Shown in pieces: positions 2,988-61,536 of a DNA stretch of 63,858 nt. The position numbers and the translations under genes are program-made. Under the pieces are notes generated by a model. The model saw only the letters and a list, made by a program, of their open reading frames with translations, was not told the DNA's origin and ran no database searches. Where the stretch lies: positions 1 through 63,858 of IMG/VR virus record IMGVR_UViG_3300045282_000203; one strand, 5' to 3'. Source of the stretch: a virus. Every line of letters starts with the position of its first letter. Positions within the stretch are counted from its first letter, which is position 1.

Positions 2988-3998
2988 CTACGAGAGGGTG
3001 ATGAAGCCGAGCTCGGCAGCTTCCTTAACGTAGGAGAGCGGGACGTTGATGGGCTCACCATCGGAGGCGCGCTTCACGGTCTTCTTCAGTGCCTCGGCGA
3101 CCGTCGTGCACTTCATGACGATCTCGAACAGCTTGCGGCGGACGGTGCCCTCTCGGGTGATGCTGAGGTCTGCCTTGGGGTTGGCCTTGATCTTCTTGTT
3201 GACGATGTCCCCGCCCTTCGCAGGTGCGGTCTTGGTCTCGGCCTTCTTCTGGAAGGGCAGCGGGGTCTTCAGAGCAGCCTTGGTCTCGGTCTTAGCGGGC
3301 GGGGCTGTCTTCGTGGCGACCTTCTTCGTATCCTTCACGGTGGGCTTGGTGGTTGACTTCTTCGTGGGTTCCATGACTTCTCCTTTGACGATCGTGGGGT
3401 GGGTAGGTTCGCCTCCTTCAAGGGACTTCCCTACTTTGAGATTGGACTTCGACGGGGCACTGCAGACCATCGCGGTGGCGAACGGCAGTCCCTCGTCTGG
3501 CTCCTGCTCTTTGGTGGCTTCGGCCCTCGGCCTGCGGGTGAGCTGAACCGTGGGCTTCTTCGTCTCCTTCTCGGTTGACTTCTTTGTGACGGAGGGCGCG
3601 GGCTTCTTCGTCTCCTTCTCGGTTGCCTTCTTGGTAGGGGCGGGTGCTGGTTTCTTCATGTCTTTCTTCGCGGCCTGCTTGGTGGTAGGAGTGGGCCGGG
3701 CCACTGGTTCCTCCTCGGTGGGTTTGGGATTGGTGATGTCGGCGAACACGTGCCGCGCGGCTGGGGTGATGACCACCCCAAGGTTGACGAGATTCTGCCA
3801 CTTCTCGATGAGGTCGTGCACCGAGGTAGAGGTGGTCTCGTGATTGTAGGTGCTGTTGAACTTCGTGGTGATGAGCTGCTGGACGTCGACCTTGCGGGTG
3901 CCTCTGTCCTTCATCACTGACACGAAGATGGTGTGCTTCTCAGTCTCGGAGATCCTGAGGACGACATGACGCTGAGCATCGAAGCAGATGTCTGGCAT
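2988..3998 (-). CDS. Lys/Pro/Thr-rich repeat protein with folded ends
   Basis: 336 residues, ATG 3998 behind GAGGTGG. Residues 1-90 look folded, with predicted helices and strands. Residues about 95-255 are low complexity, dominated by Lys, Pro, Thr and Ala. They include tandem near-repeats of the form TKKxTEKETKKP, resembling histone H1-like or nucleoid-protein tails. The last 75 residues again look folded (RREG..RRKLFEIV...TVAEALKKTV). The basic tail suggests nucleic acid binding, but no family is recognised. The repeats could vary in number between relatives by slippage or recombination. Confidence 0.7.
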   Translation of the reverse strand: MPDICFDAQRHVVLRISETEKHTIFVSVMKDRGTRKVDVQQLITTKFNSTYNHETTSTSVHDLIEKWQNLVNLGVVITPAARHVFADITNPKPTEEEPVARPTPTTKQAAKKDMKKPAPAPTKKATEKETKKPAPSVTKKSTEKETKKPTVQLTRRPRAEATKEQEPDEGLPFATAMVCSAPSKSNLKVGKSLEGGEPTHPTIVKGEVMEPTKKSTTKPTVKDTKKVATKTAPPAKTETKAALKTPLPFQKKAETKTAPAKGGDIVNKKIKANPKADLSITREGTVRRKLFEIVMKCTTVAEALKKTVKRASDGEPINVPLSYVKEAAELGFITLS

Positions 3999-4006
3999 GG
4001 ACCACC

Positions 4007-4396
4007 TCAGTAGGAAGGAAAGATCTTGACTTCGTGGATGTCGGAGCCGAACAGTTCGTTGATCTGCTGCTTGAGGGCGGCTCGTTGATCATTCAGCTTG
4101 TAGATGCTGCGAGCGTGTTCGGTGAAGGCTATCCCGAAGAGCTGGTGAGCCTCACGCTCTCGTAGTATGTCCTCCACCACCCAGAGCTTCTCATTCACCC
4201 AGGCGAGCTGCTCTCGGAGACCGCGCAACCGGCTGTCATCGTTGAAGCTGAGGGTACGAAGCGCGCCGTGCAGCTCGGTCAGCTCCAAGCTGATCTGAGC
4301 ACGTTGCGCGGAATCCTGCACGCGGGCTTCCTTGAGGTGGAGGATGGTGATCTTGTCGATCAGCTCACCGAGCGAGACGGGGATGTAGACTCTCAT
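4007..4396 (-). CDS. DUF6165 family protein
   Basis: 129 residues. ATG 4396 is preferred over the adjacent GTG at 4399 because of the AGGAGAG ribosome site. The family pattern is clear: IPVSLGELIDKITILHLK at the N-terminus, then a long alpha-helical stretch with LWVVEDILREREA, and an end motif ARSIYKLNDQRAALKQQIN followed by GSDIHEVKIFPSY. DUF6165 proteins are small helical proteins of unknown function found in bacteria and phages, sometimes near glycan genes. Whether this relates to the phage glycosyltransferase at 57.6 kb is unknown. Confidence 0.85.
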   Translation of the reverse strand: MRVYIPVSLGELIDKITILHLKEARVQDSAQRAQISLELTELHGALRTLSFNDDSRLRGLREQLAWVNEKLWVVEDILREREAHQLFGIAFTEHARSIYKLNDQRAALKQQINELFGSDIHEVKIFPSY

Positions 4397-4485
4397 CACT
4401 TACTCTCCTTCCAGGTGGTGAGGCGCTCAATGAACTCATCGAACTCATCCACCACCACTACCGGGATCTCGTGGGTAGACAGTGA

Positions 4486-4896
4486 TCACTTCTTCAGCTC
4501 TTCGTTCAGGTAGTGCAGGAACAGGAAGGTGTCACCGTGTTGCCTGAGCACCCCACTCGTCAGTAGTGCGTAGCACGGAGCGCAGAGATCTCCGATGAAG
4601 GTCCCCTCGTGCTTGTGATTGGTGCAGCCATGCACCAGACACTTGTCTTCGAGATCAGCCTCGGTAGGAAGCGGCACGTTGCAGAGTCGCCGGACCCACT
4701 GCACCCCTAGCGGGGTGACGGTGCAAAGACTGTTGTCATCACCGGGGCGCTCTTGCACGAGAACACCGTGAGAGATCATCGTAGCGATGTCTTCCTTGAC
4801 GGCGGGCGCGTGTTGCCGTGGGTGGGGACCTGAGCAAACGAAGAAGTGAAGAAGGACGTCGATGAAGTTCGGGGTGTTGGGGACTATCGGTTTCAT
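4486..4896 (-). CDS. Hypothetical protein with winged-helix-like N-terminus and Cys/His pairs
   Basis: 136 residues, ATG 4896 behind GGAGCC. The N-terminal 70 residues have the flow of a winged-helix fold (helices, then LVQERPGDDNSLCTVTPLG as a possible wing). The C-terminal half has CLVHGCTNH and CAPCYALL, spaced like a treble-clef or zinc ribbon. A DNA-binding regulator is possible, but no family is recognised. About 90 bp separate it from the DUF6165 gene; I see no gene or clear signal there. Confidence 0.6.
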   Translation of the reverse strand: MKPIVPNTPNFIDVLLHFFVCSGPHPRQHAPAVKEDIATMISHGVLVQERPGDDNSLCTVTPLGVQWVRRLCNVPLPTEADLEDKCLVHGCTNHKHEGTFIGDLCAPCYALLTSGVLRQHGDTFLFLHYLNEELKK

Positions 4897-4928
4897 ATGA
4901 GGCTCCTTGTGTTGGCAGTTGTGGTGGT

Positions 4929-5030
4929 TTAATCGATGAAGTCAGCGATGAGGTCCCACACGACGGAGACCACCACCCCAATCAGTAGACCGCTGAGAAT
5001 CCAACCGAGAATGCTTAAGAGTGTGCTCAT
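4929..5030 (-). CDS. 33-residue single-pass membrane peptide
   Basis: A short frame starting at ATG 5030 and overlapping the upstream stop as ATGA (5027-5030), the same coupling used throughout this operon. It encodes one hydrophobic helix, ILSGLLIGVVVSVVWDL, with an acidic tail ending in IADFID. Function unknown. The overlap and clean membrane helix support it being real. Confidence 0.55.
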   Translation of the reverse strand: MSTLLSILGWILSGLLIGVVVSVVWDLIADFID

Positions 5031-5377
5031 GGGTTCAACCTCCTGTACTCCTCGTTGTTGGCCCTGATGGCCTGGTTGACCGGGAACTGCATCGCACCAA
5101 ACAGACTCTTGCGCTTGTCGAGTGGCATGTACCTATCACTCTCGAGGATCTTTGCGATGATCTGCAACTCGCCCTGGGTGAAGGGTCGAGACACCGTTCG
5201 CTTGCTGCGCCCGAGCATGTTCTTCAGCTCATTGAGGAAGGCGCCCGGTCCAGGCTTGGCCGCGTCCCGGCACCTCGCATCGTAGTGATCCAGAGCCAAC
5301 CAGATGAGATCGTGGACCTCCGCCTGGTTGAACTGCATGACGGTCTTGATCTCGTACTCGAAGCCGAGGGCTTTCAT
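5027..5377 (-). CDS. Hypothetical protein, 116 aa
   Basis: 116 residues, ATG 5377, overlapping the preceding gene as ATGA. Predicted to be mainly helical, with many charged residues and one short basic stretch, GRSKRTVSRPF. No motif or family is recognised. It is part of the run of small coupled genes between ligase and DUF6165. Confidence 0.65.
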   Translation of the reverse strand: MKALGFEYEIKTVMQFNQAEVHDLIWLALDHYDARCRDAAKPGPGAFLNELKNMLGRSKRTVSRPFTQGELQIIAKILESDRYMPLDKRKSLFGAMQFPVNQAIRANNEEYRRLNP

Positions 5378-5589
5378 CGGGCACCAACCTTGTTGACAGC
5401 ACTCTTGAGCTCAGCCCTCAGCTCCCGGGCTATCGACCTCACCTTATCAGCGCGACGCTTAGCCTCTGACAGCGTGATCTCAGCGTCAGCCGGACTGTAG
5501 TGCCCGGCTTGGCCCTGAGCGTGCTCTTCGATCAGGGCCGCGTGAGCGTTCAGGTACCGTACTATCGTGTTCATGATCTTGAGGTTCAT
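5374..5589 (-). CDS. Hypothetical small helical protein, 71 aa
   Basis: 71 residues from ATG 5589, overlapping both neighbours by four bases. Composition is Ala/Glu/Arg-rich and helical, with EAKRRADKVRSIARELRAEL likely forming an amphipathic helix. No family recognised. Confidence 0.6.
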   Translation of the reverse strand: MNLKIMNTIVRYLNAHAALIEEHAQGQAGHYSPADAEITLSEAKRRADKVRSIARELRAELKSAVNKVGAR

Positions 5590-5786
5590 GTCTTCTCCTT
5601 GTGGTAGTGGAGGTTGAAGTGCTTGCTGCCGTAGCGGACGAGTGCCTCGAACACGTGACGCTCGAGGTAGACAGTGTCGGTGGGGTGTTCAAGATCATTG
5701 GCTCGCAGCTCGATCTGCCCGTTCACGAAGACGGCGTAGAGGGCATTACCGAGGTACTCGGGGTGAGAGGACTCATTGACGCTCAT
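5586..5786 (-). CDS. Hypothetical small protein, 66 aa
   Basis: 66 residues. ATG 5786 is chosen because it forms TGATG with the upstream stop; the frame also has a GTG one codon earlier. The sequence looks like a small beta-rich fold (NALYAVFVNGQIELRA, DTVYLERHVFEALV). No family recognised. Confidence 0.6.
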   Translation of the reverse strand: MSVNESSHPEYLGNALYAVFVNGQIELRANDLEHPTDTVYLERHVFEALVRYGSKHFNLHYHKEKT

Positions 5787-5920
5787 CACTTCCTCCCTGA
5801 GTACATGCGCGTCTCAAAGAGACGATGATCGAGGGTGACGTTCACGATGTTTGGCATGTTCCTAAGGTGAAGCAACATCCCCATCGCAGATGGCCAGTTC
5901 CTGAACTCGCGTGTGATCAT
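5786..5920 (-). CDS. Hypothetical small protein, 44 aa
   Basis: 44 codons from ATG 5920, with ATGA overlap to the ligase stop upstream and TGATG overlap downstream. The product is basic and contains MGMLLHLRNMPNIVNVTLDH. No motif is recognised; the perfect coupling at both ends supports it. Confidence 0.5.
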   Translation of the reverse strand: MITREFRNWPSAMGMLLHLRNMPNIVNVTLDHRLFETRMYSGRK

Positions 5921-6795
5921 ACGTCCTCCCTGAAGCCCTTGAACACAGGGTGGCGGGGGCGGTCCTTCACACCTACGGGGAAGAAGCGGTAGGTGATCAC
6001 GCGATCGAGGAGTCGTTCCTCCCAGAGCTGCACTCGCTCGGCCTGCGTGAAGCCGGTGCCGACCTCGAACTCCACCCCGGTCTTGAGATCCCGCACGACG
6101 AGGGCGCCGAGGACACCGCCAGCAGACTTCCCAGCGGCGTGGTTCGTGCGCTTCCCGCTCGCGTCCTTCTCGTTGTGGTTGTGGCGAAGCTCAACCATGT
6201 CGATGATCACCGCTTCTGAGTCGTCGAACCGCTTCATCTTCAGCAGCCACCCCTCATTGAAGGTAGAGCGACCGTGCTTGTAGGGCCCGTGAGGGTGGCG
6301 GAGCATCACGCCCTCGTAGCCCTTCGTCACGCAGACCTCCTCGTAGCGGATGAGCTCTTCGTGGTTCTTCACGGTGATGTGCTGCACGAGCTTGATGTCT
6401 AACAAGCCGCGGACTGCTGCCCTCAGCTTCTGCAGACGCTCGGTGAAGCCCCGCTCATCGCCATCACCCCACCACCAATCGAAGACGTGAAAGGTGACAT
6501 CGGGTCTGCCATCACCCGACATCACTCCTCGTGTCGTGGTGTTGAAGCACTGTGAGTCGGTGGGCTCACCCACGATGAGCTCACCATCGAAGCCGATGAA
6601 GGCCTCATGACTAATGAGAGTCTGGGTGTGGCGGTTCCTGATGAGCTTGCCGTTGTAGCTGTAGAGCTTACCGTCGGGCTGGTTGAAAGCGCGGATGCCG
6701 TCGAGCTTCGGGCTGGCGAGCAGTGGGTACCGGAGCTGGTGGATGTTCTCAGTGGTGACCTTGTCACTCTTCATGAGCTTGATGAGGTTGGGCAT
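5917..6795 (-). CDS. ATP-dependent DNA ligase
   Basis: 292 residues, seals nicks during phage DNA replication and repair. The adenylation motif is LASPKLDGIR with nucleophile Lys30. Further nucleotidyltransferase motifs follow in order: FDGELI (motif III), TFHVFDWW (IIIa), YEGVMLRHP (IV) and WLLKMKRF (V). The C-terminal 90 residues form the OB domain, with GALVVRD and a final KGFREDV. Length fits compact phage ligases that lack extra DNA-binding domains. ATG 6795 follows a good ribosome site, and the stop overlaps the next start. Confidence 0.93.
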   Translation of the reverse strand: MPNLIKLMKSDKVTTENIHQLRYPLLASPKLDGIRAFNQPDGKLYSYNGKLIRNRHTQTLISHEAFIGFDGELIVGEPTDSQCFNTTTRGVMSGDGRPDVTFHVFDWWWGDGDERGFTERLQKLRAAVRGLLDIKLVQHITVKNHEELIRYEEVCVTKGYEGVMLRHPHGPYKHGRSTFNEGWLLKMKRFDDSEAVIIDMVELRHNHNEKDASGKRTNHAAGKSAGGVLGALVVRDLKTGVEFEVGTGFTQAERVQLWEERLLDRVITYRFFPVGVKDRPRHPVFKGFREDV

Positions 6796-6823
6796 GACTT
6801 CTCCTTGTGTTGGTGGAGGTGGG

Positions 6824-14304: not shown

Positions 14305-14477
14305 GGTGTCTCCTTGTCTTTGAGAAGTGCGAAGCAGGTGGCTCGACCGAGGGAGAATGGGAGGACGGTCGGTCCGACGATGAGAGCCGCACAGAGCGCG
14401 AATATGTCACTACCGAAGATCTGATACACGAACCCCACCGAGAAGAGGTAGTAGGTGATGATCAGCAGCTCACTCAT
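14301..14477 (-). CDS. Two-helix membrane protein, 58 aa
   Basis: 58 residues from ATG 14477; its stop overlaps the next start as ATGA. Mostly hydrophobic: LLIITYYLFSVGFVYQIFG and IFALCAALIVGPTVLPF. No family recognised. Another of the small membrane proteins scattered through the leftward operon. Confidence 0.6.
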   Translation of the reverse strand: MSELLIITYYLFSVGFVYQIFGSDIFALCAALIVGPTVLPFSLGRATCFALLKDKETP

Positions 14478-15382
14478 AGCAACACCTCCTTCATCTGATC
14501 TTGCTGAAGCTTAACAGCCACACCATCAACCACAACCGTTCGCAGGACTCGGGGATCCGCACGGCACTCGTTCTGGTAGGTCTTCCGGAGCTGGACCCAG
14601 CCACGCAGGTTGCCCTGGAGCTGAGGGAGCGTGATGATGTCCTCTGCGGTCGGTACCTTGGCGATGTGCTCGAAGGCGCTCCAGTGCCCAGAGTCACGCA
14701 AGCGGTCGTGGAGCTGAAGGTCCTTCTCTAGGCTCGGAGGTCCATCGAAGCTCTCGTAGGAGAGCCGGGCAGCGCGGGCCACCGCCACGCGAATCTTAAC
14801 GTCTTCAGGCCACGCAGGATCCATCGAGTTGCCGAAGGGGACGTGCCACTCACCGGGCTGGAGCACCTGCGGCAGGCTCTCGTTGTAGAGTGACAGCATC
14901 AGGCTCGCCAGGGCGCTGAAGGTGGGATCCGCGTCAGGGTGGGCGCGCAGGGCGAAGAAGTTGTGGTGCCCACTCTCTACCATGGTAAAGAGCACGGTGA
15001 TGTGAGACCAGGGCTCAGTGATGCGGTTGATCACCTGCTTGTGGGCGCCAAGAGCGATCATCTGCTCAGCGATGTTGACGATCTTGTTTCCCGCGCTGTG
15101 CCAGAGATTCTCCACTCGCTCTTGGATGGCGGGACTCAGCTCTTCCTCAGCCTGCATCCCCGGCTGGTTCTTCCCCCAGTGGGTGGGCGCGGCCGGGTTG
15201 TCTAAGATAGCCTGGACCCGCTTCTTCGAGGGGATCGCTCGGCTGCTGGAGGCGTTCCGGCTGGCCTGCCGGTGAGTCATGAGCTCGGAGTGGATGAACC
15301 GTGGGTAGGTCAGGAGCCACGTAGTCAGGCGGTGGTCTCCGCTGGCTTGCACGGAGTCGAGGAGGACCTTGGCCTCGATCAT
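14474..15382 (-). CDS. thyX: Flavin-dependent thymidylate synthase ThyX
   Basis: 302 residues; makes dTMP from dUMP using methylene-tetrahydrofolate, FAD and NADPH. The ThyX signature is at residues 37-48 (HRQASRNASSSR; the usual leading Arg is Thr here). A second half contains SALASLMLSLYNESLPQVL, then RVAVARAARLSYES, HDRLRDSGHWSAFEH and GNLRGWVQLRKTYQNE, matching the substrate-binding C-terminal part. It is longer than typical 220-250-residue ThyX. ATG 15382 overlaps the upstream stop as ATGA. A ThyX frees the ThyA-type enzyme at 55109-55951 for another reaction. Confidence 0.92.
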   Translation of the reverse strand: MIEAKVLLDSVQASGDHRLTTWLLTYPRFIHSELMTHRQASRNASSSRAIPSKKRVQAILDNPAAPTHWGKNQPGMQAEEELSPAIQERVENLWHSAGNKIVNIAEQMIALGAHKQVINRITEPWSHITVLFTMVESGHHNFFALRAHPDADPTFSALASLMLSLYNESLPQVLQPGEWHVPFGNSMDPAWPEDVKIRVAVARAARLSYESFDGPPSLEKDLQLHDRLRDSGHWSAFEHIAKVPTAEDIITLPQLQGNLRGWVQLRKTYQNECRADPRVLRTVVVDGVAVKLQQDQMKEVLL

Positions 15383-54103: not shown

Positions 54104-54302
54104 GGGTGCTCCGAGCACGGTGGTTGAGGTGGGTGACGGTGACGAGCAGACTGATCAGTAGCAGTCCGATGAGGAGATAGATCATCAGCACCTCGAGGTG
54201 AGGACGTGGGCTGTGTGGTCGCCACGGTTGTGGTTGTGGCAACTTCGGGCGGTTGTATCCAAGCTGCTTGCGGTGTCGCCAGGTCTTAAAGCGCTGCAAC
54301 AT
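54084..54302 (-). CDS. Small membrane protein with basic N-terminus, 72 aa
   Basis: 72 residues from ATG 54302, behind GGAGGTTGTG. Basic, Pro-rich N-terminal 38 residues, then one membrane helix (IYLLIGLLLISLLVTVTHL) and short tail. Overlaps both neighbours by about 20 bases. Function unknown. Confidence 0.5.
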   Translation of the reverse strand: MLQRFKTWRHRKQLGYNRPKLPQPQPWRPHSPRPHLEVLMIYLLIGLLLISLLVTVTHLNHRARSTHESHSR

Positions 54303-54630
54303 CACAACCTCCTTCGATGATCTTCAGGCTAAGGAACTGACCGAGCAGCACCTCCTTGCGTGAGCCCTTGCTACCCTCCCACCCCGGCGAGAGCACCACG
54401 ACGTCGCGATCCTTGTCGAGACCCCTGATGACGTGAGTACAGTAGTCGAGCGCCTCGTCCCAGCTGAGGTGGTGGGTGTGCATCATGTGGGGTAGCACCG
54501 GCAGGTAGCCTCGCTGAGCTGCCCAGATGGCGGTGATGGCCGCCCGCTTTACGTTCTCGAGGATGACGAGCGGGTCGTCATTGGAGTAGGGTCCGACGAT
54601 GTAGGCCCGCGGGAGAGGTGGTAGGCTCAT
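54286..54630 (-). CDS. DUF4406-like protein (nucleoside 2-deoxyribosyltransferase fold)
   Basis: 114 residues from ATG 54630, ATGA-coupled to dCMP deaminase. RAYIVGPYSNDDPLVILENV and RDVVVLSPGWEGSKGSRKEV match DUF4406-type proteins, whose fold is that of nucleoside 2-deoxyribosyltransferases. HMMHTHHLSWDEALDYC lies between. It may handle nucleosides or nucleotides for the modification genes, but DUF4406 activity is not established. Confidence 0.75.
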   Translation of the reverse strand: MSLPPLPRAYIVGPYSNDDPLVILENVKRAAITAIWAAQRGYLPVLPHMMHTHHLSWDEALDYCTHVIRGLDKDRDVVVLSPGWEGSKGSRKEVLLGQFLSLKIIEGGCDVAAL

Positions 54631-55112
54631 CGTAGCTGCTCCCAGAGACGGCCTGCTGAGACCCACATCTCTTTCGCGTGGGGCTGGGGGTACTCCTCGT
54701 CGAACACGATGCGCTGACAGCTGGTGTTGAGCAGGAGCTTCACGCACGTGATGCAGGGGCTTGTCGTGCAGTAGCACGTGTGCAGTTGGTAGACGTCTCT
54801 GATCTGCAAAAGCGCGTTTTGCTCGGCGTGGATGGCCTCGCACCCATCGAGGTTGGTGCCGCTCGGGCTGCACGCGCCCGGGCAGGCGTGTGGGAACTCG
54901 GGTACATTTCGACCGAGCTTGCGGTTGATGGTAGGTATGGGATCACGCTCGTTGCAGTGAGGCAGCCCTGCCGCGACACCGTTGTACCCGGTTGAAAGCA
55001 CGTGGCCTCGCTCACTCAGTAGCACACAACCCACCGCTCGGCGGAGACAGGTGGAGCGCTTGGCCGTGACCCTGGCGACTTCCATCGCCCAGCTATCTCG
55101 TGAGGACCTCAT
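54627..55112 (-). CDS. dCMP deaminase
   Basis: 161 residues from ATG 55112, ATGA-coupled to the thymidylate-synthase homologue; an earlier ATG lies at 55121. Zinc-site signature HAEQNALLQ (His95, Glu97) and TTSPCITC (Cys120, Cys123). Extra Cys/His in CNERDPIP and HACPGACSPSG suggest a second zinc, as in T4 dCMP deaminase. Converts dCMP to dUMP, feeding ThyX. Together with its neighbour at 55109 it would divide the dCMP pool between dUMP and modified dCMP. Confidence 0.93.
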   Translation of the reverse strand: MRSSRDSWAMEVARVTAKRSTCLRRAVGCVLLSERGHVLSTGYNGVAAGLPHCNERDPIPTINRKLGRNVPEFPHACPGACSPSGTNLDGCEAIHAEQNALLQIRDVYQLHTCYCTTSPCITCVKLLLNTSCQRIVFDEEYPQPHAKEMWVSAGRLWEQLR

Positions 55113-55951
55113 AACCACCACCTCTTCTCCTTGCTCTCACGCAGCTCCTTGAGCAGCTCGATGAGGGCGTCGGGGTCCTGGGCCAGCTCGGGCGGTACCG
55201 GCTGCTGAGGCACGTGCGGGCACCTCTGCTGAGCGTACCCATCATTGAACTTCTTCAGGTCACTCATGATCGCGGTAGCGGCCTCAGCGTTGGTGTCGTA
55301 GAGGTGGCTGCTCACCGTGGTGAGGGCGAGGTGCCCCAGCTTGACTGGCGGGAGCTGGATCACCTGGCTAACACGCTCCTGGTTCACCCGCCCGGCGACG
55401 AGCCAGGCCAGCATGCTGAAGCTGAAGACGTCGTAGGGCAGACCCAACCACACATCAGATGAGCGCATGAACACGTGCACGTTGAGCTCATCCTCTCGGA
55501 TGCTGAACCAGATCGCTACCGTGCAGGGGATGTCACGGGAGGGTGTCGGCATGTCCTTCCAGATGACGAGCCCGGCCTGCCTCGTGCTGGGATCGATGAG
55601 GAGCTTGTCGACGACCCAGGCCAGCTGACTCTTGATCCGGGGGCCGTAGGCGCCGGTGAACTTCGTTCCGTCGTCACTGAACTGGGCGATGTGGGAGTTG
55701 TACGGGGCGATGCCCGCGACGGTGTCGTCCCCCGTGAGGATCCAGAACGCTTCCGCGGCCATGAACGCGTAATTCAGCTTGCGCTGAGGGACGCGGACCA
55801 CCGGCTTGTTCAGGTCGATGAAGAAGGTCTGGTGCAGCAGCTCCTTCGTGCCGAGGTTGCGTGGTGCCGAGCGGGCCCCGGTGTAGAAGATGTTGGCGAG
55901 AGCTCTGAGCCACTCCATGGTGGCATCTTGAGAGATGATGGGTGGGTTCAT
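55109..55951 (-). CDS. Thymidylate-synthase homologue, predicted dCMP hydroxymethylase (or methylase)
   Basis: 280 residues, ATG 55951. ThyA fold with catalytic Cys143 in DIPCTVAIWFSIRED and phosphate-binding RSSD (163-166). Asp174, in VWLGLPYDVFSF, stands where thymidylate synthases have the Asn that selects dUMP. T4 gp42 dCMP hydroxymethylase also has Asp there. The residue after the Cys is Thr, as in gp42, where ThyA has His. The phage has a separate ThyX, so dTMP supply does not need this enzyme. Predicted to make 5-hydroxymethyl-dCMP (or 5-methyl-dCMP). A dUMP activity is less likely because of Asp174. Confidence 0.82.
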   Translation of the reverse strand: MNPPIISQDATMEWLRALANIFYTGARSAPRNLGTKELLHQTFFIDLNKPVVRVPQRKLNYAFMAAEAFWILTGDDTVAGIAPYNSHIAQFSDDGTKFTGAYGPRIKSQLAWVVDKLLIDPSTRQAGLVIWKDMPTPSRDIPCTVAIWFSIREDELNVHVFMRSSDVWLGLPYDVFSFSMLAWLVAGRVNQERVSQVIQLPPVKLGHLALTTVSSHLYDTNAEAATAIMSDLKKFNDGYAQQRCPHVPQQPVPPELAQDPDALIELLKELRESKEKRWWL

Positions 55952-56898
55952 GCGTTCTCCTTCATGCGGGCCTGCTGGATGAGACCGATGAGCGGGTAGG
56001 GCTCGTGGTGATGGAAGCGCTTCGCGTGCTGAGGGTGGTCCACGGTGACGTGGTGGATGTCGAGGGCTGTGAGTCGCTCGTGGGCCTTCTGCCCGAGAGC
56101 GAAGACATGAGGATAGTGGAGACGATCGTCGTTGTCGATCACGAGATCTTCATTGAAGGCCTCAAGCTCATCAGAGTTCACCCAGAGGAGCTCACTCTCT
56201 GGGATGTCTGCCTCAACCAGCTGATCGGTGAGCCACGTGCTGCAGCCCAGCCGAGTCAACGCGGCGAATGGCCACTGGTAGAGAGTGTCACCGTCCTGCC
56301 TCTCTCCGAACTCATCGCCCACGAGAACGATCCTCGCAAGGAGGTTCCCCGCTCCGTGGTGGCTCGTGGACAGGGTGACACCACTCAGAGTTCCACGTCG
56401 CACAAGATCGATCACGGCATCTTTGGTGTAGTCGAACCTGAGCACCTCGAGATCGGTCTGAGACTCGAGACGGTTGTACAGCTCGTAGACCTCGGTGAGC
56501 TGCTTCTCGTTGTCGAGGAGCTCGAGCTGCCTCCGTTCCCTGTAGGTCCGCAGCACCACCTCAAGGGGCGGGAGGCAGAGCACCACGGTGGGGTCGCAGC
56601 GCAGCGCGAGACGCTCGAGGTGACGACGGTAGGTCACGCCCAGGCGGTTCTCCCCACCGCGGAAGACCTTCCCGTAGATGGGCTCGCTGAGCCAGCTGCG
56701 ATCGAGAACCGTGGTGGTGAAGCCGAGGACCGCGGGCAGCATCGACTCGACGTAGAGCCGAGCGAGGCCGCCGCTCACGTTCTTGTAGGGGCCGTGGTGG
56801 ACCACATGTGTGTTGATGCCGGTGACGAGCTTCTTGATCGTGGTTGTCTTCCCACCGCCATCAGGGCCCTCGAAGATGATCAGCTTCTCACTGTCCAC
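55948..56898 (-). CDS. P-loop nucleotide kinase fused to a UDG-fold-like domain
   Basis: 316 residues from GTG 56898 behind GGAGGTGC. Residues 1-175: thymidylate-kinase-like P-loop domain with Walker A EGPDGGGKTT (10-19) and LDRSWLSEPIYG (65-76). Residues about 186-310 look like the uracil-DNA-glycosylase superfamily: IVLVGDEFGERQDG (190-203), WPFAALTRLG, LLWVNSDE (238-245), VFALGQKAHERL (265-276) and VDHPQHAKR (287-295). The kinase could phosphorylate modified dNMPs. The second domain could recognise or process bases. The fusion and its pathway role are inferred; both ends are coupled to neighbours. Confidence 0.72.
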   Translation of the reverse strand: MDSEKLIIFEGPDGGGKTTTIKKLVTGINTHVVHHGPYKNVSGGLARLYVESMLPAVLGFTTTVLDRSWLSEPIYGKVFRGGENRLGVTYRRHLERLALRCDPTVVLCLPPLEVVLRTYRERRQLELLDNEKQLTEVYELYNRLESQTDLEVLRFDYTKDAVIDLVRRGTLSGVTLSTSHHGAGNLLARIVLVGDEFGERQDGDTLYQWPFAALTRLGCSTWLTDQLVEADIPESELLWVNSDELEAFNEDLVIDNDDRLHYPHVFALGQKAHERLTALDIHHVTVDHPQHAKRFHHHEPYPLIGLIQQARMKENA

Positions 56899-57424
56899 CG
56901 TGCACCTCCGTGTGATACACCGCATCATCCGAGCAGAGCGCGTCGTGCACCTCTCCGTTCACCTCGAAGTCGAAGCGTCGGTAGCCCGCGTGCCTCAGCA
57001 ATGCCTCATGACGAGGTGGCACCCAGCCAGCTGGCTTCACCACGTCTACCTGATGACCGCGCTTCCCGATACCGTTGACCTTGCTCATGTTCGCCCGCTG
57101 CACCTCGTCCCAGCCGTCTGACCACATCGCTCGGAGGCCGAGCATCTGTGCGGTGCCCTTGGCGAAGTAGACGAGATCAAGAAGAGCGTCGAACTGGCCC
57201 ACGAGGTCCTGTGAGTCGACGGCGTCCTCGAACTCGTTCAGCTCCTCACGAAGGCAAGCGAGCCGCTCACGGAGCTTGCGGCGGGTGAGGTGCGTGGGTT
57301 CATCATTGAGAAGATGATCGAACTTCTTCTGGAACCGGCGCACGTCCTCCATCTCTGGATCGAGGTGGCCGATGAAGAAGAGCTGGTCCAGCCAGCTGCA
57401 GAGGTTTTCCCAGAGGCTTTTCAT
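56888..57424 (-). CDS. MazG-like nucleotide pyrophosphohydrolase, candidate dCTPase
   Basis: 178 residues from ATG 57424 behind AAAGGAAAG. All-alpha NTP pyrophosphatase core: REELNEFEDAV gives the ExxE pair and QFDALLDLVYFAKGTAQ the DxxD pair, followed by EVQRANMSKV. MazG/HisE-like enzymes split NTPs to NMP and pyrophosphate. In this cluster a dCTP/dCDP-hydrolysing role, as T4 gp56 has, would give dCMP and keep plain cytosine out of DNA; substrate is inferred. The C-terminal 60 residues contain PAGWVPPRHEALL, common in phage members. Confidence 0.82.
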   Translation of the reverse strand: MKSLWENLCSWLDQLFFIGHLDPEMEDVRRFQKKFDHLLNDEPTHLTRRKLRERLACLREELNEFEDAVDSQDLVGQFDALLDLVYFAKGTAQMLGLRAMWSDGWDEVQRANMSKVNGIGKRGHQVDVVKPAGWVPPRHEALLRHAGYRRFDFEVNGEVHDALCSDDAVYHTEVHGGQ

Positions 57425-57468
57425 AAGTTCTTTCCTTTCAGCAAATATAACATTAAACATGTGTTCAG

Positions 57469-57555
57469 TTAGAGGAGATCAGGATGACCCAGGTGGTGGC
57501 CAGGGTCTCTAGCTGCTGACCCACGAACGAGGATCTCGCGATCATCTGGGGTCAT
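57469..57555 (-). CDS. Possible 28-aa mini gene in a short gap
   Basis: The 127-base gap 57425-57551 has a frame starting at ATG 57555, overlapping the glycosyltransferase stop as ATGA and encoding 28 residues (MTPDDREILVRGSAARDP...). A second frame would give a 26-residue hydrophobic peptide. Neither can be confirmed. The rest is AT-rich and supplies the ribosome site for the MazG-like gene. Confidence 0.3.
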   Translation of the reverse strand: MTPDDREILVRGSAARDPGHHLGHPDLL

Positions 57556-58523
57556 CTGGCACCCACCGTCAACCGCTTGTCCCAGGCCTTGAGGACCTCC
57601 TTTCTCAGCAGCTGGTGGTAGCTCTGGTGCCAGGCCTGCTGGGCCTGGAAGATCTTCGAGCGGCGCTTGAGGAAGTACTCGATCTGGTCGACGTCCTCAA
57701 GGACGTAGGGCCTGATGTCGATGCCCACTGCCTCGAACCGCGGCACCGCCTCCTCCTGGAACACCATCGGCAGCCCAGCACCCAGCATCTCGTAGAAGCG
57801 TGCCGCTGGGTTGACGAAGAACCTGACCTCGTCCTGGAGGTAGAGTCCCAGTGAGTAGGCGCCGATCGCGTCAGCGAGCTGATGATGGGGCACAGGTGGC
57901 GCGAGCTGCAGATGCGGGTAGCGCTCCAGCCAGCGCTCATTCTGAGTGGTGTTGGTCATCACCGTCACGTCGGGGCTTTCAGCAGAGAAGAAGCGATCAA
58001 ACGTCTTCACCCGCCCGGTGCGCATGGCCCCGTAGTAGAGGAGGTTGCGGACCTTGGGGCGCTGCGGGGTGATCCTGTTGTAGAACAGGTAGTCCCAGTG
58101 GATCAGCTTGCTGAACTCCGAGCGCTCCGTGTAGTGGGGCACCGTCGTCCAGAAGTCGAGGTTGAGACCGCGGTCGAGTGCCTCCCTGATGGCGACGAGG
58201 ACAGGGCTGGCTGAGGACTTCGTGTTGTGGCTCGGCTTCTCCAGGTGGTAGTCGTTCACCACCCAGATGACCTGCTTCGCCTTGCGGATGACGGCGGCGA
58301 GTTCCTGCTGGGCGTGACAGTGATGCATGAGCCCGTTGATGACGAAGAGGGTGTCTGGCTGGTAGGCCAGGAGCTCTTCACCTCCTCGCCTCCCGGTAGC
58401 CTTGTTCTTGCTGTCACCCCAGACGGGGATCTTCAGGGTCTCGCTGAGGAACAGCGCGAGGAGGCTGTTGCAGTTGATCGCGCCCTCATTGAGGGCTGTC
58501 AGGTTGAAGACTGCGACTTTCAT
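57552..58523 (-). CDS. Glycosyltransferase, GT-B-like, candidate DNA-base glycosylation enzyme
   Basis: 323 residues, ATG 58523 in ATGA overlap with the methyltransferase gene. N-terminal Rossmann-like half (VFNLTALNEGAINCNSLLAL, DTLFVINGLMHHCHAQ, QVIWVVNDYHLEKPS). The C-terminal half has the GT-B donor-site pattern: GAYSLGLYLQ, then NPAARFYEMLGAGLPMVFQ with a conserved Glu. Phage enzymes of this fold include T4 glucosyltransferases that modify hydroxymethylcytosine. The gene sits between C5 methyltransferase and MazG/kinase/hydroxymethylase-like genes, so DNA is a likely acceptor. The sugar donor is unknown; a protein or glycan acceptor cannot be excluded. Confidence 0.72.
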   Translation of the reverse strand: MKVAVFNLTALNEGAINCNSLLALFLSETLKIPVWGDSKNKATGRRGGEELLAYQPDTLFVINGLMHHCHAQQELAAVIRKAKQVIWVVNDYHLEKPSHNTKSSASPVLVAIREALDRGLNLDFWTTVPHYTERSEFSKLIHWDYLFYNRITPQRPKVRNLLYYGAMRTGRVKTFDRFFSAESPDVTVMTNTTQNERWLERYPHLQLAPPVPHHQLADAIGAYSLGLYLQDEVRFFVNPAARFYEMLGAGLPMVFQEEAVPRFEAVGIDIRPYVLEDVDQIEYFLKRRSKIFQAQQAWHQSYHQLLRKEVLKAWDKRLTVGAR

Positions 58524-59551
58524 AGGTCCTCCTCTTCGATGGTGGGTGACAAGATCTTCACGAGACGGTACTTGGGATCACCTCGCAGAGGTGGCTTGAT
58601 GAGACCGCCCTTGACGGCATTGGCCAACCACTCACCCGCGGGGGCGAGGACAGTACGCGAGAGCAGCCCACTGATCGCGCCCAGCTTGTCAGATTCGATC
58701 TTCCAGGTCTTCGGCAGGCCGCTAATCGCGAGCATCTCCTTGTACGAGAGACGACGTGGTTCGTCGTAGTGACGGCAGGAGCCTGGGAAGAACACCCCGC
58801 AGATCTCGTCGGGTCTGAAGCGCTTGGCCAGCCAGTTCGGTTTGCAGGTGATTTTCTTCTGCTGGGCGGCGGGGAGACTGCGATACGCCTCTGAGTACTT
58901 GTAGTGGTGCTTGGGGCAGATCTTCCAGAGGAAGATGTCACCGTCCGTCTCCGACCACTTCTCTGCTGGCTTCACCTTGATGCTCTTCAGCAGGCTCCCC
59001 ACCGTCGGGTGCTTGGTCACCACCTTGGGCCACACGAGTGGGTGCTGGTGGGCGATGAAGAACATGCGCTTGCGATGCTGAGGCGCACCGAGGTAGAGGT
59101 TGTTCTGGATGAGCACCGTGACGTGGTAGCCGCGATCCATCCACAGCTTGGCCTTCTTGTCGACGAAGTTCCTGCCCTTTCCCCACGCCTGGGTGACGGA
59201 CTCCCAGACGAAGGTCTTGGTCTTCATCCTGAGGCCGGCATCCATGAGGCTCTCCACGCAGTCGAGGCGAGGATCAACGTCCCACGTGTGGGCTCGGCCG
59301 GCTGAGAGGGTGGACCAGGGCGCGCAGGGCGGGTTGCTGTAGAGAAGATCGACCTTGCCGAAACTGTCGGCAGCCCAGTTCTCCTTCCCGATGCGGATGT
59401 CGAGGTGTGGGAAGTTGAGCTTCGCTGTCTTCACCCCGTACGCCACGTGCTCGAGGTGCACATCGACCTCGAACCCCGCCTTCATGACGCCGTGGGTGAA
59501 GGCGCCGGCGAAGCAGTCACCGCCGACTGCAACGAACCTTGATCTGACCAT
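58520..59551 (-). CDS. C5-cytosine DNA methyltransferase
   Basis: 343 residues, ATG 59551 behind AAGGAGAC. Motifs in canonical order: I (GGDCFAGAFTHGVMKAGFEV), IV (SNPPCAPWS, catalytic Cys76), VI (FVWESVTQ, with Ser where ENV is usual), VIII (GAPQHRKRMFFIA) and late X (LANAVKGG). It transfers a methyl group to cytosine C5 at an unknown target. If phage DNA already carries hydroxymethylcytosine, this enzyme would lack substrate there, so it may act on a subset of sites or have changed chemistry. Coupled to the glycosyltransferase. Confidence 0.88.
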   Translation of the reverse strand: MVRSRFVAVGGDCFAGAFTHGVMKAGFEVDVHLEHVAYGVKTAKLNFPHLDIRIGKENWAADSFGKVDLLYSNPPCAPWSTLSAGRAHTWDVDPRLDCVESLMDAGLRMKTKTFVWESVTQAWGKGRNFVDKKAKLWMDRGYHVTVLIQNNLYLGAPQHRKRMFFIAHQHPLVWPKVVTKHPTVGSLLKSIKVKPAEKWSETDGDIFLWKICPKHHYKYSEAYRSLPAAQQKKITCKPNWLAKRFRPDEICGVFFPGSCRHYDEPRRLSYKEMLAISGLPKTWKIESDKLGAISGLLSRTVLAPAGEWLANAVKGGLIKPPLRGDPKYRLVKILSPTIEEEDL

Positions 59552-59576: not shown

Positions 59577-61058
59577 TCAGGCTGCGCGCCTACGGTGCTT
59601 GGCGAGGTTGAGAAGTGCGGTGAAGAGCTTCTGCTGACCACCTTCTTTCTCAGTGAGCGTAGGCATCATCACAAGATCTTCGACGGTGTCACGCATGAGG
59701 AGACGGTGGATCATCGTGTGCTTCCTGGTATTGCCGGAGCGGATGACCCGGCTGTTGAACTGATCGTAGAGGTCCTGGTCCCACGTGGGTGTGTGCCAGC
59801 AGAGATCAGCCTCGCACCCCTGGAGGTTGAGACCGGTGCCGATGGACTGGGGATGACCGAACATCACTGGGACGTCGCCGGCGTTCCACTTGTCTTCTAC
59901 CTTGGTGTAGTCCTTGTCCTTTACGTCACTGATGAACACCGCCTTCGGGAACCTCTTCTTGAGACGATCGACGTCGTGGTGGAAGTCGTAAGCGACGAGA
60001 AGTGGGCGGTGCTGCATCTCATCAATGAGGTCCTCCAGGGCGTCGGTCTTCTGATCGTGGATGTTGATCCACTCTCGCTTCCGCATCTTCAGGTTGATGC
60101 TCAGAGTCTTCACCACCTCGGGGTCGAGGTAGATCCCACCTGAGCAGATCTGACGACACTTCACACTCTTGGCGCCAGCTGTCCCAGCCTTCACGAGATT
60201 GCCGTTGATCTCAGCGATCATGAGAGCTTCCATCTCCTCATAGATGCGACGGTAATCTTCATCGAAGTCGATGAGGATGTCGTTCTCGACCCGCTCGGGG
60301 AGGTCGATCTCTGAGCTCGGGACGTGCATCATGAGGTGGGAGAGCTTCTCATAGATGCGCTCCTCAGCGTCGAGCTTAGGCACGAGCTCGTAGGGCCCCA
60401 CCTGATCAAAGAACTCTCTCCGGAAGTACGTGATGTACTGGCCGAGAGCGTTACCCATGTCGAGGACGTAGGTCTCTCCGAAGAGATCTTCGAGACCGTT
60501 CGACCCCGCGCTGCCGGTGAGACCCCATCGTCGCCCGAAGGTGTGGAGGATCGTCTTGAGGGTCTTGAAGCGGAGTGAGGTAGTGTGCTTGAACTTCTGC
60601 AGCTCATCCACGACGAGAAGATCGAAGCCGAGCTTCTTGAAGGCGCGGACATCGACATCGACGTAGGACTTGTTCTTCGCATCCTTGGTGACGGTGGGAC
60701 CAAGAAGCCACTGCAGCCCCTCAGGGGTGATCGTGTAGATGTCCGCGTCGCGGCGCAATGCCTTCTCACGGTCCTTGCCGTGGAGGATCTCAACCTTGAG
60801 ATGCTTGAAGTCCTCCCACTTCGCCACCTCGCCCGGCCAGACCGCGTAGCACGGCCGCTTCGGAGCGATGACGAGGACCTTGTGAACGAGGCCCTGCTTC
60901 TTGAGGAGACTGATGGCGGCGAGGGTCGTGCTGGTCTTGCGGAGTCCCGGCTTGAACAGGAGTCCAGCGCAAGCGTGTGATAGGAGGAACTTCATTCCTC
61001 TCTTCTGGAACTTCGCGGGCTTCCACTTCTGGGGTGGCTTCTTGATCAGGTCATTCAT
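59577..61058 (-). CDS. SNF2-like DEAD/DEAH-type helicase
   Basis: 493 residues from ATG 61058 (MNDLIKKPPQKWKPA), behind GGAGATTTC. Motif I is FKPGLRKTSTTLA, with Arg in place of Gly before Lys-Thr. Motif Ia is VLVIAPKRP, motif II VVDELQKFK (DELQ), motif III LTGSAGSNGLEDLFG. C-terminal RecA domain: PLLVAYDFHHDVDRLKKRFP, SIGTGLNLQGCEADLCWH, and NSRVIRSGNTRKHTMIH (motif VI). Likely remodels DNA or drives branch migration in replication or recombination. Confidence 0.88.
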   Translation of the reverse strand: MNDLIKKPPQKWKPAKFQKRGMKFLLSHACAGLLFKPGLRKTSTTLAAISLLKKQGLVHKVLVIAPKRPCYAVWPGEVAKWEDFKHLKVEILHGKDREKALRRDADIYTITPEGLQWLLGPTVTKDAKNKSYVDVDVRAFKKLGFDLLVVDELQKFKHTTSLRFKTLKTILHTFGRRWGLTGSAGSNGLEDLFGETYVLDMGNALGQYITYFRREFFDQVGPYELVPKLDAEERIYEKLSHLMMHVPSSEIDLPERVENDILIDFDEDYRRIYEEMEALMIAEINGNLVKAGTAGAKSVKCRQICSGGIYLDPEVVKTLSINLKMRKREWINIHDQKTDALEDLIDEMQHRPLLVAYDFHHDVDRLKKRFPKAVFISDVKDKDYTKVEDKWNAGDVPVMFGHPQSIGTGLNLQGCEADLCWHTPTWDQDLYDQFNSRVIRSGNTRKHTMIHRLLMRDTVEDLVMMPTLTEKEGGQQKLFTALLNLAKHRRRAA

Positions 61059-61536
61059 GAAATCTCCATCGACGTTTTGCAGATTCACTCATCTTTCTTT
61101 TTGTTGCATCAGAATGTTTCCGTCCCAGTCCAGCATTTCTCACCTTCTCCCGTGTTTCTAAGGAGAGTGTTGTCCCTAATCTAGCATTTCGGATTTTCTT
61201 CTTAGACTCTGTTGAATGTTTTCTTCCAAGCCACGTTTGTCTTATCTTCTCTCGCCCCTCTTTTGACAATCTCGATTTTAGTCGTCCCTTCTCTGAAGCA
61301 TCCCACATGTTATCTTTGCAAGTGCCGAGAAAGTGATGCTCATCTCTGATGCACCGTGGGTTATCACATGTATGACAGACGAAGATCTTACTTGAGGCAA
61401 TAGGTCCGTGACGCATCTGATAAAGACGACGCGAAACCCCATTTGCAGTTGTATCACATTGAGCCGGACGGACTAAGCATTTGCCCTCCCAATGAGATTC
61501 ATTTTCGTAATCCTGAATTGTTTTTCTTCGTCCCAT
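61051..61536 (-). CDS. HNH homing-type endonuclease with NUMOD3 repeats
   Basis: 161 residues from ATG 61536, behind GGAGGAGGC. HNH core (about 54-76): CHTCDNPRCIRDEHHFLGT and CKDNMWD. The C-terminal third has repeated NUMOD3-type DNA-contact units (SKEGREKIRQTWLGRKHS, SLETREKVRNAGLGRKHS). Free-standing homing endonucleases spread into related phage genomes. AT content is clearly higher than in neighbours, supporting recent acquisition together with the VRR-NUC gene. It overlaps the VRR-NUC stop by 38 bases. Confidence 0.88.
   Translation of the reverse strand: MGRRKTIQDYENESHWEGKCLVRPAQCDTTANGVSRRLYQMRHGPIASSKIFVCHTCDNPRCIRDEHHFLGTCKDNMWDASEKGRLKSRLSKEGREKIRQTWLGRKHSTESKKKIRNARLGTTLSLETREKVRNAGLGRKHSDATKRKMSESAKRRWRFHE

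Follow-up and report, generated by a model that had tools for sequence, protein, structure and literature searches.

The window analyzed here is the whole of IMG/VR record IMGVR_UViG_3300045282_000203 (positions 1 to 63,858; 63,858 nucleotides), and it holds seven co-directional genes on the minus strand (54286-59551) that are likely to make and tailor 5-hydroxymethylcytosine (hmC), yielding a T4-like hydroxymethylated and glycosylated cytosine with enzymes of other families. The genes are as follows.

58520..59551, minus strand: C5-cytosine-methyltransferase (C5-MTase)-fold protein, 343 aa (PF00145 DNA_methylase, 1.6e-18; nearest PDB protein M.HaeIII, 6.7e-6)
57552..58523, minus strand: GT-B glycosyltransferase (GT), 323 aa, probable DNA (hydroxymethylpyrimidine) glycosyltransferase (AlphaFold model and fold search)
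56888..57460, minus strand: MazG-like/PRA-PH nucleotide pyrophosphohydrolase, proposed dCTPase substitute (PF01503, 3.9e-13; conserved cassette member)
55948..56928, minus strand: TMPK-like P-loop kinase, proposed hydroxymethyl-dCMP (hm-dCMP) kinase (fold search; C-terminal domain conserved)
55109..55951, minus strand: ThyA homologue, predicted dCMP 5-hydroxymethylase (PF00303 Thymidylat_synt, 4e-18; best PDB match MilA)
54627..55121, minus strand: dCMP deaminase, converting dCMP to dUMP and probably feeding ThyX (PF00383 dCMP_cyt_deam_1, 9.6e-19; phrog_174, 2.4e-35)
54286..54630, minus strand: DUF4406/nucleoside 2-deoxyribosyltransferase-like protein, 114 aa (PF14359, 9.3e-6; phrog_355, 2.4e-11), with a likely start codon at 54630, not 54873

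All genes named in the initial annotation were recovered at their coordinates and on this strand from open reading frame positions and Pfam. The near-universal overlap that it described also held: C5-MTase/GT overlap by 4 bp, MazG/kinase by 41 bp, kinase/ThyA by 4 bp, and ThyA/deaminase by 13 bp, and a 91-bp gap between the GT and MazG genes is the single gap in the overlapping series. The final 100 bp of the record are repeated at 47-146, with the PolA frame running into the repeat; the genome looks complete at ~63.7 kb, and the absence statements made below for this phage therefore carry meaning. Matches to DUF3383 (3.7e-109) and Baseplate_J (1.1e-5) in Pfam favored a contractile tail, in agreement with the annotation as a myovirus; DUF3383 serves as the tail sheath in some myoviruses.

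The ThyA homologue retained the catalytic Cys (146), Arg166, Ser167, Asp169, His207, and Tyr209 (E. coli ThyA numbering), had Asp for Asn177 (PYD motif), Thr for His147, and Met for Gln165 relative to E. coli ThyA, and was without Trp80. The Asp of the T4 gp42 type noted in the initial annotation was confirmed at the position of E. coli Asn177. Its Thr, Met, and Asp are common to T4 gp42, and the aligned residues of the CMP 5-hydroxymethylase MilA, the closest PDB protein (7.8e-18), are the same three. Where a thymidylate synthase has Asn177, His147, and Trp80, the window protein had Asp, Thr, and no Trp; where the hydroxymethyl-dUMP (hmdUMP) synthases of SPO1 and M6, like the ThyA homologues of phiW-14 and IME392, have Cys-Asn and Asn177, it had Cys-Thr and Asp and fell outside that tree group. 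In a 53-protein ThyA tree, in which T4 gp42 and E. coli stand on long branches and are of unsure placement, it grouped with other phage proteins of the Cys-Thr/Asp type in a 19-member clade (support, 98/97). From its residues and phylogeny, we strongly infer that the ThyA homologue would convert dCMP and methylene-tetrahydrofolate (methylene-THF) to hydroxymethyl-dCMP, and phage genes labeled "thymidylate synthase" in this clade are suggested to be dCMP hydroxymethylases. The ThyA proteins of Stenotrophomonas phage AXL_3 (AXL3; L004, 7983-8792) and Pseudoxanthomonas phage PW916 (L003, 3280-4098) are annotated as thymidylate synthase/deoxyuridylate hydroxymethyltransferase; their residues point to dCMP hydroxymethylase, contrary to this annotation.

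The gene order MazG-kinase-ThyA-dCMP deaminase recurs in AXL3 and in many IMG/VR contigs, so the arrangement in the window is not a matter of chance. Contigs with modified cytosine in the MetaGPA study also carry PF00303, PF01503, and PF00383 together (eLife 2021, PMC8670742). The core cassette is accordingly of an already known kind, and the T4-equivalent set from other families claimed in the initial annotation is present, although it is not unique to this phage. In AXL3, 35 of 37 restriction enzymes, all with G/C in their sites, failed to cut the DNA, and the A/T-only enzymes TasI and Tru1I cut it; the published account interprets the genes as making dTMP and offers no explanation for the resistance (PMC7504290). 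A cytosine modified by this cassette is a possible explanation for AXL3 DNA that resists nearly all restriction enzymes. An ordinary thymidylate operon, as in the published AXL3 annotations, would have ThyA making dTMP, the kinase making dTDP, and the MTase protecting the DNA, with the deaminase supplying dUMP. This we consider very improbable: it leaves the AXL3 resistance unaccounted for, it conflicts with the Asp, the Thr, and the missing Trp80 of the ThyA homologue, and the genome already encodes another thymidylate synthase.

14474..15382, minus strand: ThyX, flavin-dependent thymidylate synthase (PF02511, 3.1e-11, above cut-off)

Because ThyX is a separate route to dTMP, the ThyA homologue is dispensable for that product. 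ThyX was also found in AXL3, PW916, and five IMG/VR relatives (7/17).

An Asp at position 177 reportedly made thymidylate synthase a dCMP methylase, going by the title of Liu and Santi (1992), which favors a ThyA homologue that methylates dCMP. The phage DNA would then carry 5-methylcytosine (5mC) as in Xanthomonas phage Xp12, the DNA of which is 100% 5mC and is cut by KpnI and AhdI (PMC7653180). DLP4, used as the representative of the Xp12 genus, has an Asp177 ThyA adjoining a dCMP deaminase, and in AXL1, of the same genus, a pyrophosphohydrolase lies at the equivalent place too and the DNA is partly cut by KpnI and Eam1105I (PMC9206674). However, DLP4 ThyA has the Trp of thymidylate synthase (PLWDKF, compared with TIWDEW), Cys-Pro, and Leu165, and its genome has dihydrofolate reductase (DHFR), none of which the window has; no DHFR was found in the window record, while T4 and DLP4 scored positive in the same scan. 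DHFR is required by a methylase, not by a hydroxymethylase. A 5mC product would also give the GT no hydroxyl. Since KpnI and Eam1105I both fail on AXL3, yet KpnI and AhdI cut Xp12 and AXL1 is partly cut, AXL3 DNA is probably not 5mC. Methylation of dCMP in the window is thus quite unlikely, and hydroxymethylation of dCMP is the reading we carry forward.

The glycosyltransferase gave nothing above threshold in Pfam (best, PF13524 Glyco_trans_1_2, 0.0066) or PHROGs and no match to PF09198 (BGT) or PF11440 (AGT). The GT-B-like assignment of the initial annotation was settled by an AlphaFold model built from 48 sequences (pLDDT, 91.7), the best fold match of which was T4 BGT (Foldseek, 3.8e-10; Z, 19.8; root mean square deviation [RMSD], 3.6 over 302 residues), followed by T4 AGT (Z, 17.6), above other GT-Bs. 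In hhalign, the protein aligned with BGT at 2.6e-6 and 12-13% identity, with R168, R171, R242, and E245 placed against the UDP-site residues R191, R195, R269, and E272 of BGT; the four are invariant in the 48-sequence family alignment. A profile search with this family returned 64 loci. Of the main-clade loci, 17 had 5 kb of flank on each side, and ThyA lay within 5 kb of the GT at 16 of them; it was of the Asn177 (5-hydroxymethyluracil [hmU]) type in every ThyA-bearing GT locus except the window. The relatives often stand beside HMUDK genes (PF18723, PF18748), and in the tree the window GT was nested among GTs of hmU clusters (a set of five; support, 95/84). This is an undescribed phage family with relatives in hmU clusters; no member other than that of the window was found in an hmC cassette. 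Most simply, an hmC phage would have acquired its GT from an hmU lineage and put it to use on hmC. The family is the third of GT-B type in phages with a probable role in DNA glycosylation, its members lying mostly in hmU systems and one in an hmC system, and it may offer tools for labeling modified DNA.

The cassette might make hmC while the GT acts elsewhere, on the cell surface or on a virion protein. GT-B enzymes are versatile, other GT-Bs (e.g., PimA and SenB) come next at Z 16-17, and an "orphan" clade of relatives goes without ThyA (near 0 of 6 loci in the distant clade). Against this stand the rank of BGT and AGT above all other fold matches, the overlap of the GT gene with the C5-MTase gene, and the linkage of the family to hydroxymethylase and 5-hydroxymethyldeoxyuridine (5-hmdU) kinase genes. 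We regard such a role as unlikely, and glycosylation of hydroxymethylated DNA is preferred. One short pattern and one tblastn returned no member of the family in bacterial genomes or plasmids. As separate observations, the distant ThyA-less GTs (a subset of L070-L095) lie near a ParB-like gene and likely have a different role; the GT family also occurs in two cultured E. coli phages, IME392 (L007, 8001-11933) and EP_H11, together with HMUDK_hel and an hmU-type ThyA; and a protein with a uracil-DNA glycosylase (UDG)-like motif (phrog_12275) occurs in hmU clusters (L028:10867-11406) and is fused to ThyA (hmU synthase) in L047.

Taken together, the predicted hydroxymethylated and glycosylated cytosine was supported by the ThyA residues and phylogeny, ThyX, the lack of DHFR, the AXL3 restriction data, and the likeness of the GT to BGT and AGT. 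Several points weigh against it. T4 gp42 has a Trp at position 80; loss of Trp80, considered as a universal hydroxymethylase mark, was rejected as such and kept as supporting evidence only, and some probability stays with a dCMP methylase. AXL3 is without the GT and has a class-I S-adenosylmethionine (SAM) methyltransferase in its place, and its digestion data show resistance, not the identity of the base. The long branch of the window GT (2.11) leaves room for a lost or changed specificity. No sugar-nucleotide gene was recognized among the annotated window proteins, which come from a scan of part of the open reading frames. Kinases or DHFR of the host might supply steps of the pathway under any of these readings.

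In the pathway we propose, the MazG-like protein would convert dCTP to dCMP, the ThyA homologue would turn dCMP and methylene-THF into hydroxymethyl-dCMP, the TMPK-like kinase would form hm-dCDP, and host enzymes would complete hm-dCTP for incorporation into DNA by the phage PolA. The dCMP deaminase and ThyX would supply dTMP. The BGT-like GT would then glycosylate the hydroxymethyl group in DNA, presumably with a host UDP-sugar as donor, and the C5-MTase-like protein probably has this DNA as its substrate too. The MazG-like protein belongs to the all-alpha NTP-PPase family (PF01503), with a proposed specificity for dCTP. The P-loop nucleotide kinase of the initial annotation was weak in Pfam (Thymidylate_kin, 1.4e-4) and was settled by an AlphaFold model and fold search, in which residues 13-184 matched YorR/TMPK (Z, 14.5). 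With the whole kinase model, the match list was filled by the kinase domain. The C-terminal domain of the kinase (window 55951-56370) is conserved in most hmC cassettes and bears an HPQ..KRF motif. A relationship of this domain to UDG was rejected as a likeness of motif only (hhalign against a separate UDG-like phage gene, E 0.57; nothing in Pfam).

The C5-MTase-like gene is unaccounted for by the T4 analogy. The PF00145 fold expected of a C5 methyltransferase was present, with the PPC nucleophile motif and QxRxR kept, but motif VI was ESV, not ENV. A scan seeded from three cassette members returned a clade of 77 loci (the ESV clade). Of the 76 motif VI sequences that could be read, 75 were ESV and one was ECV, and PPC was invariant. 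Among the 45 loci flanked by 4.5 kb on each side, 44 had a same-strand ThyA no more than 6 kb away; nearly all ThyAs found across the 77 loci were of the Asp type. In a control clade retrieved with the Flavobacterium FPSV enzyme as query, motif VI was ENV in 80/80 and ThyA was found at 0/25 well-flanked loci (Fisher, 4e-18 for the difference in linkage, among relatives that are not independent and with a scan seeded from cassette members). The ECV variant, DSL-LC01, also has an Asp-type ThyA; separately, its block (L182, 893-7227) of GT, UDP-galactopyranose mutase, MazG, class-I MTase, and ECV C5-MTase is a candidate for galactofuranosyl modification.

The question is why many hmC-making phages retain a C5-methyltransferase-fold protein with C5 occupied. 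As C5 of hmC is already taken, the protein is unlikely to be an ordinary methylase of the base that the phage itself makes. C5-MTases couple thiols to 5-hydroxymethylcytosine in vitro (PMC7176277) and probably strip the hydroxymethyl group from it (PMC11347137), and a natural reaction of the ESV protein on this base is therefore conceivable. We tentatively suggest, as a possibility that is far from assured, that the ESV clade acts on 5-hydroxymethylcytosine in DNA rather than methylating cytosine, by the covalent Cys-C6 chemistry known in vitro for C5-MTases (addition to the hydroxymethyl group or exchange at it), building a hypermodified cytosine with the GT. A dull alternative is methylation of residual or host cytosine. 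The literature searches made returned nothing on the ESV clade.

A helicase gene lies directly upstream of the cassette, in the same position as in relatives.

59577..61088, minus strand: SNF2-type helicase (PF00176, 3.9e-18)

It clustered with helicases of hmC-cassette phages (support, 100/99), and the closest matches of the window PolA and PD-DExK proteins were also in such phages. Replacement of an hmU cassette by an hmC one at the helicase locus was rejected on these grounds, and acquisition of the GT by an hmC phage therefore fits better than a cassette swap. A probable homing endonuclease gene (HNH/NUMOD3; 61051-61536) lies between VRR-NUC and the helicase.

The class-I SAM methyltransferase was present in 15 of 23 loci (the window and 22 relatives), and none was found in the window. 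The phage is a member of the AXL3-like hmC group and has an hmU-family GT instead of the methyltransferase typical of its relatives. L019-L021 have SGNH-like and pyridoxal phosphate (PLP)-enzyme-like genes in its place. In a larger locus set, c9 (phrog_14998) occurred in 46 loci and the class-I methyltransferase in 6, never together, and UDP-glucose dehydrogenase and epimerase genes lay near 20 and 14 loci, respectively. The whole suggests a core that stays constant while the finishing enzymes are exchanged. In L019 and L020 (~3742-6802), the tailoring slot holds an SGNH-like gene, a PALP-like gene, and between them one for an unclassified 380-aa protein, possibly for another cytosine hypermodification. 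The c9 gene, found at L144:4860-5882 and at 45 further loci, separates the MazG and kinase genes of ESV cassettes and in some lies near the UDP-glucose dehydrogenase and epimerase genes; it is maybe another GT, a lead only given its weak hhalign match to BGT.

Among known systems, the Flavobacterium FPSV-type C5-MTases share PF00145, PPC, and QxRxR with the window protein but have ENV and no ThyA nearby. The window GT shares the GT-B fold with T4 beta-glucosyltransferase (GT72) and alpha-glucosyltransferase (GT63), and its four aligned UDP-site residues with BGT, but differs in its low identity to BGT, in falling outside both Pfam families, and in having relatives in hmU clusters. The carbamoyl-hmC contigs of MetaGPA (PMC8670742) have the same three-family core, tailored by a carbamoyltransferase rather than a GT. 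AXL3 and PW916 share the core gene order and the separate ThyX with the window, and AXL3 the upstream helicase, but in both a class-I SAM methyltransferase occupies the place taken in the window by the C5-MTase-like protein and the GT. The T4 pathway (gp56, gp42, gp1, and beta-GT/alpha-GT) is matched by a hydroxymethylase, a pyrophosphatase, a monophosphate kinase, a dCMP deaminase, and a GT-B DNA glycosyltransferase; in the window, however, a MazG family protein stands for gp56, a TMPK-like kinase with an extra domain stands for gp1, and the genes form a compact overlapping operon with an additional C5-MTase-fold protein.

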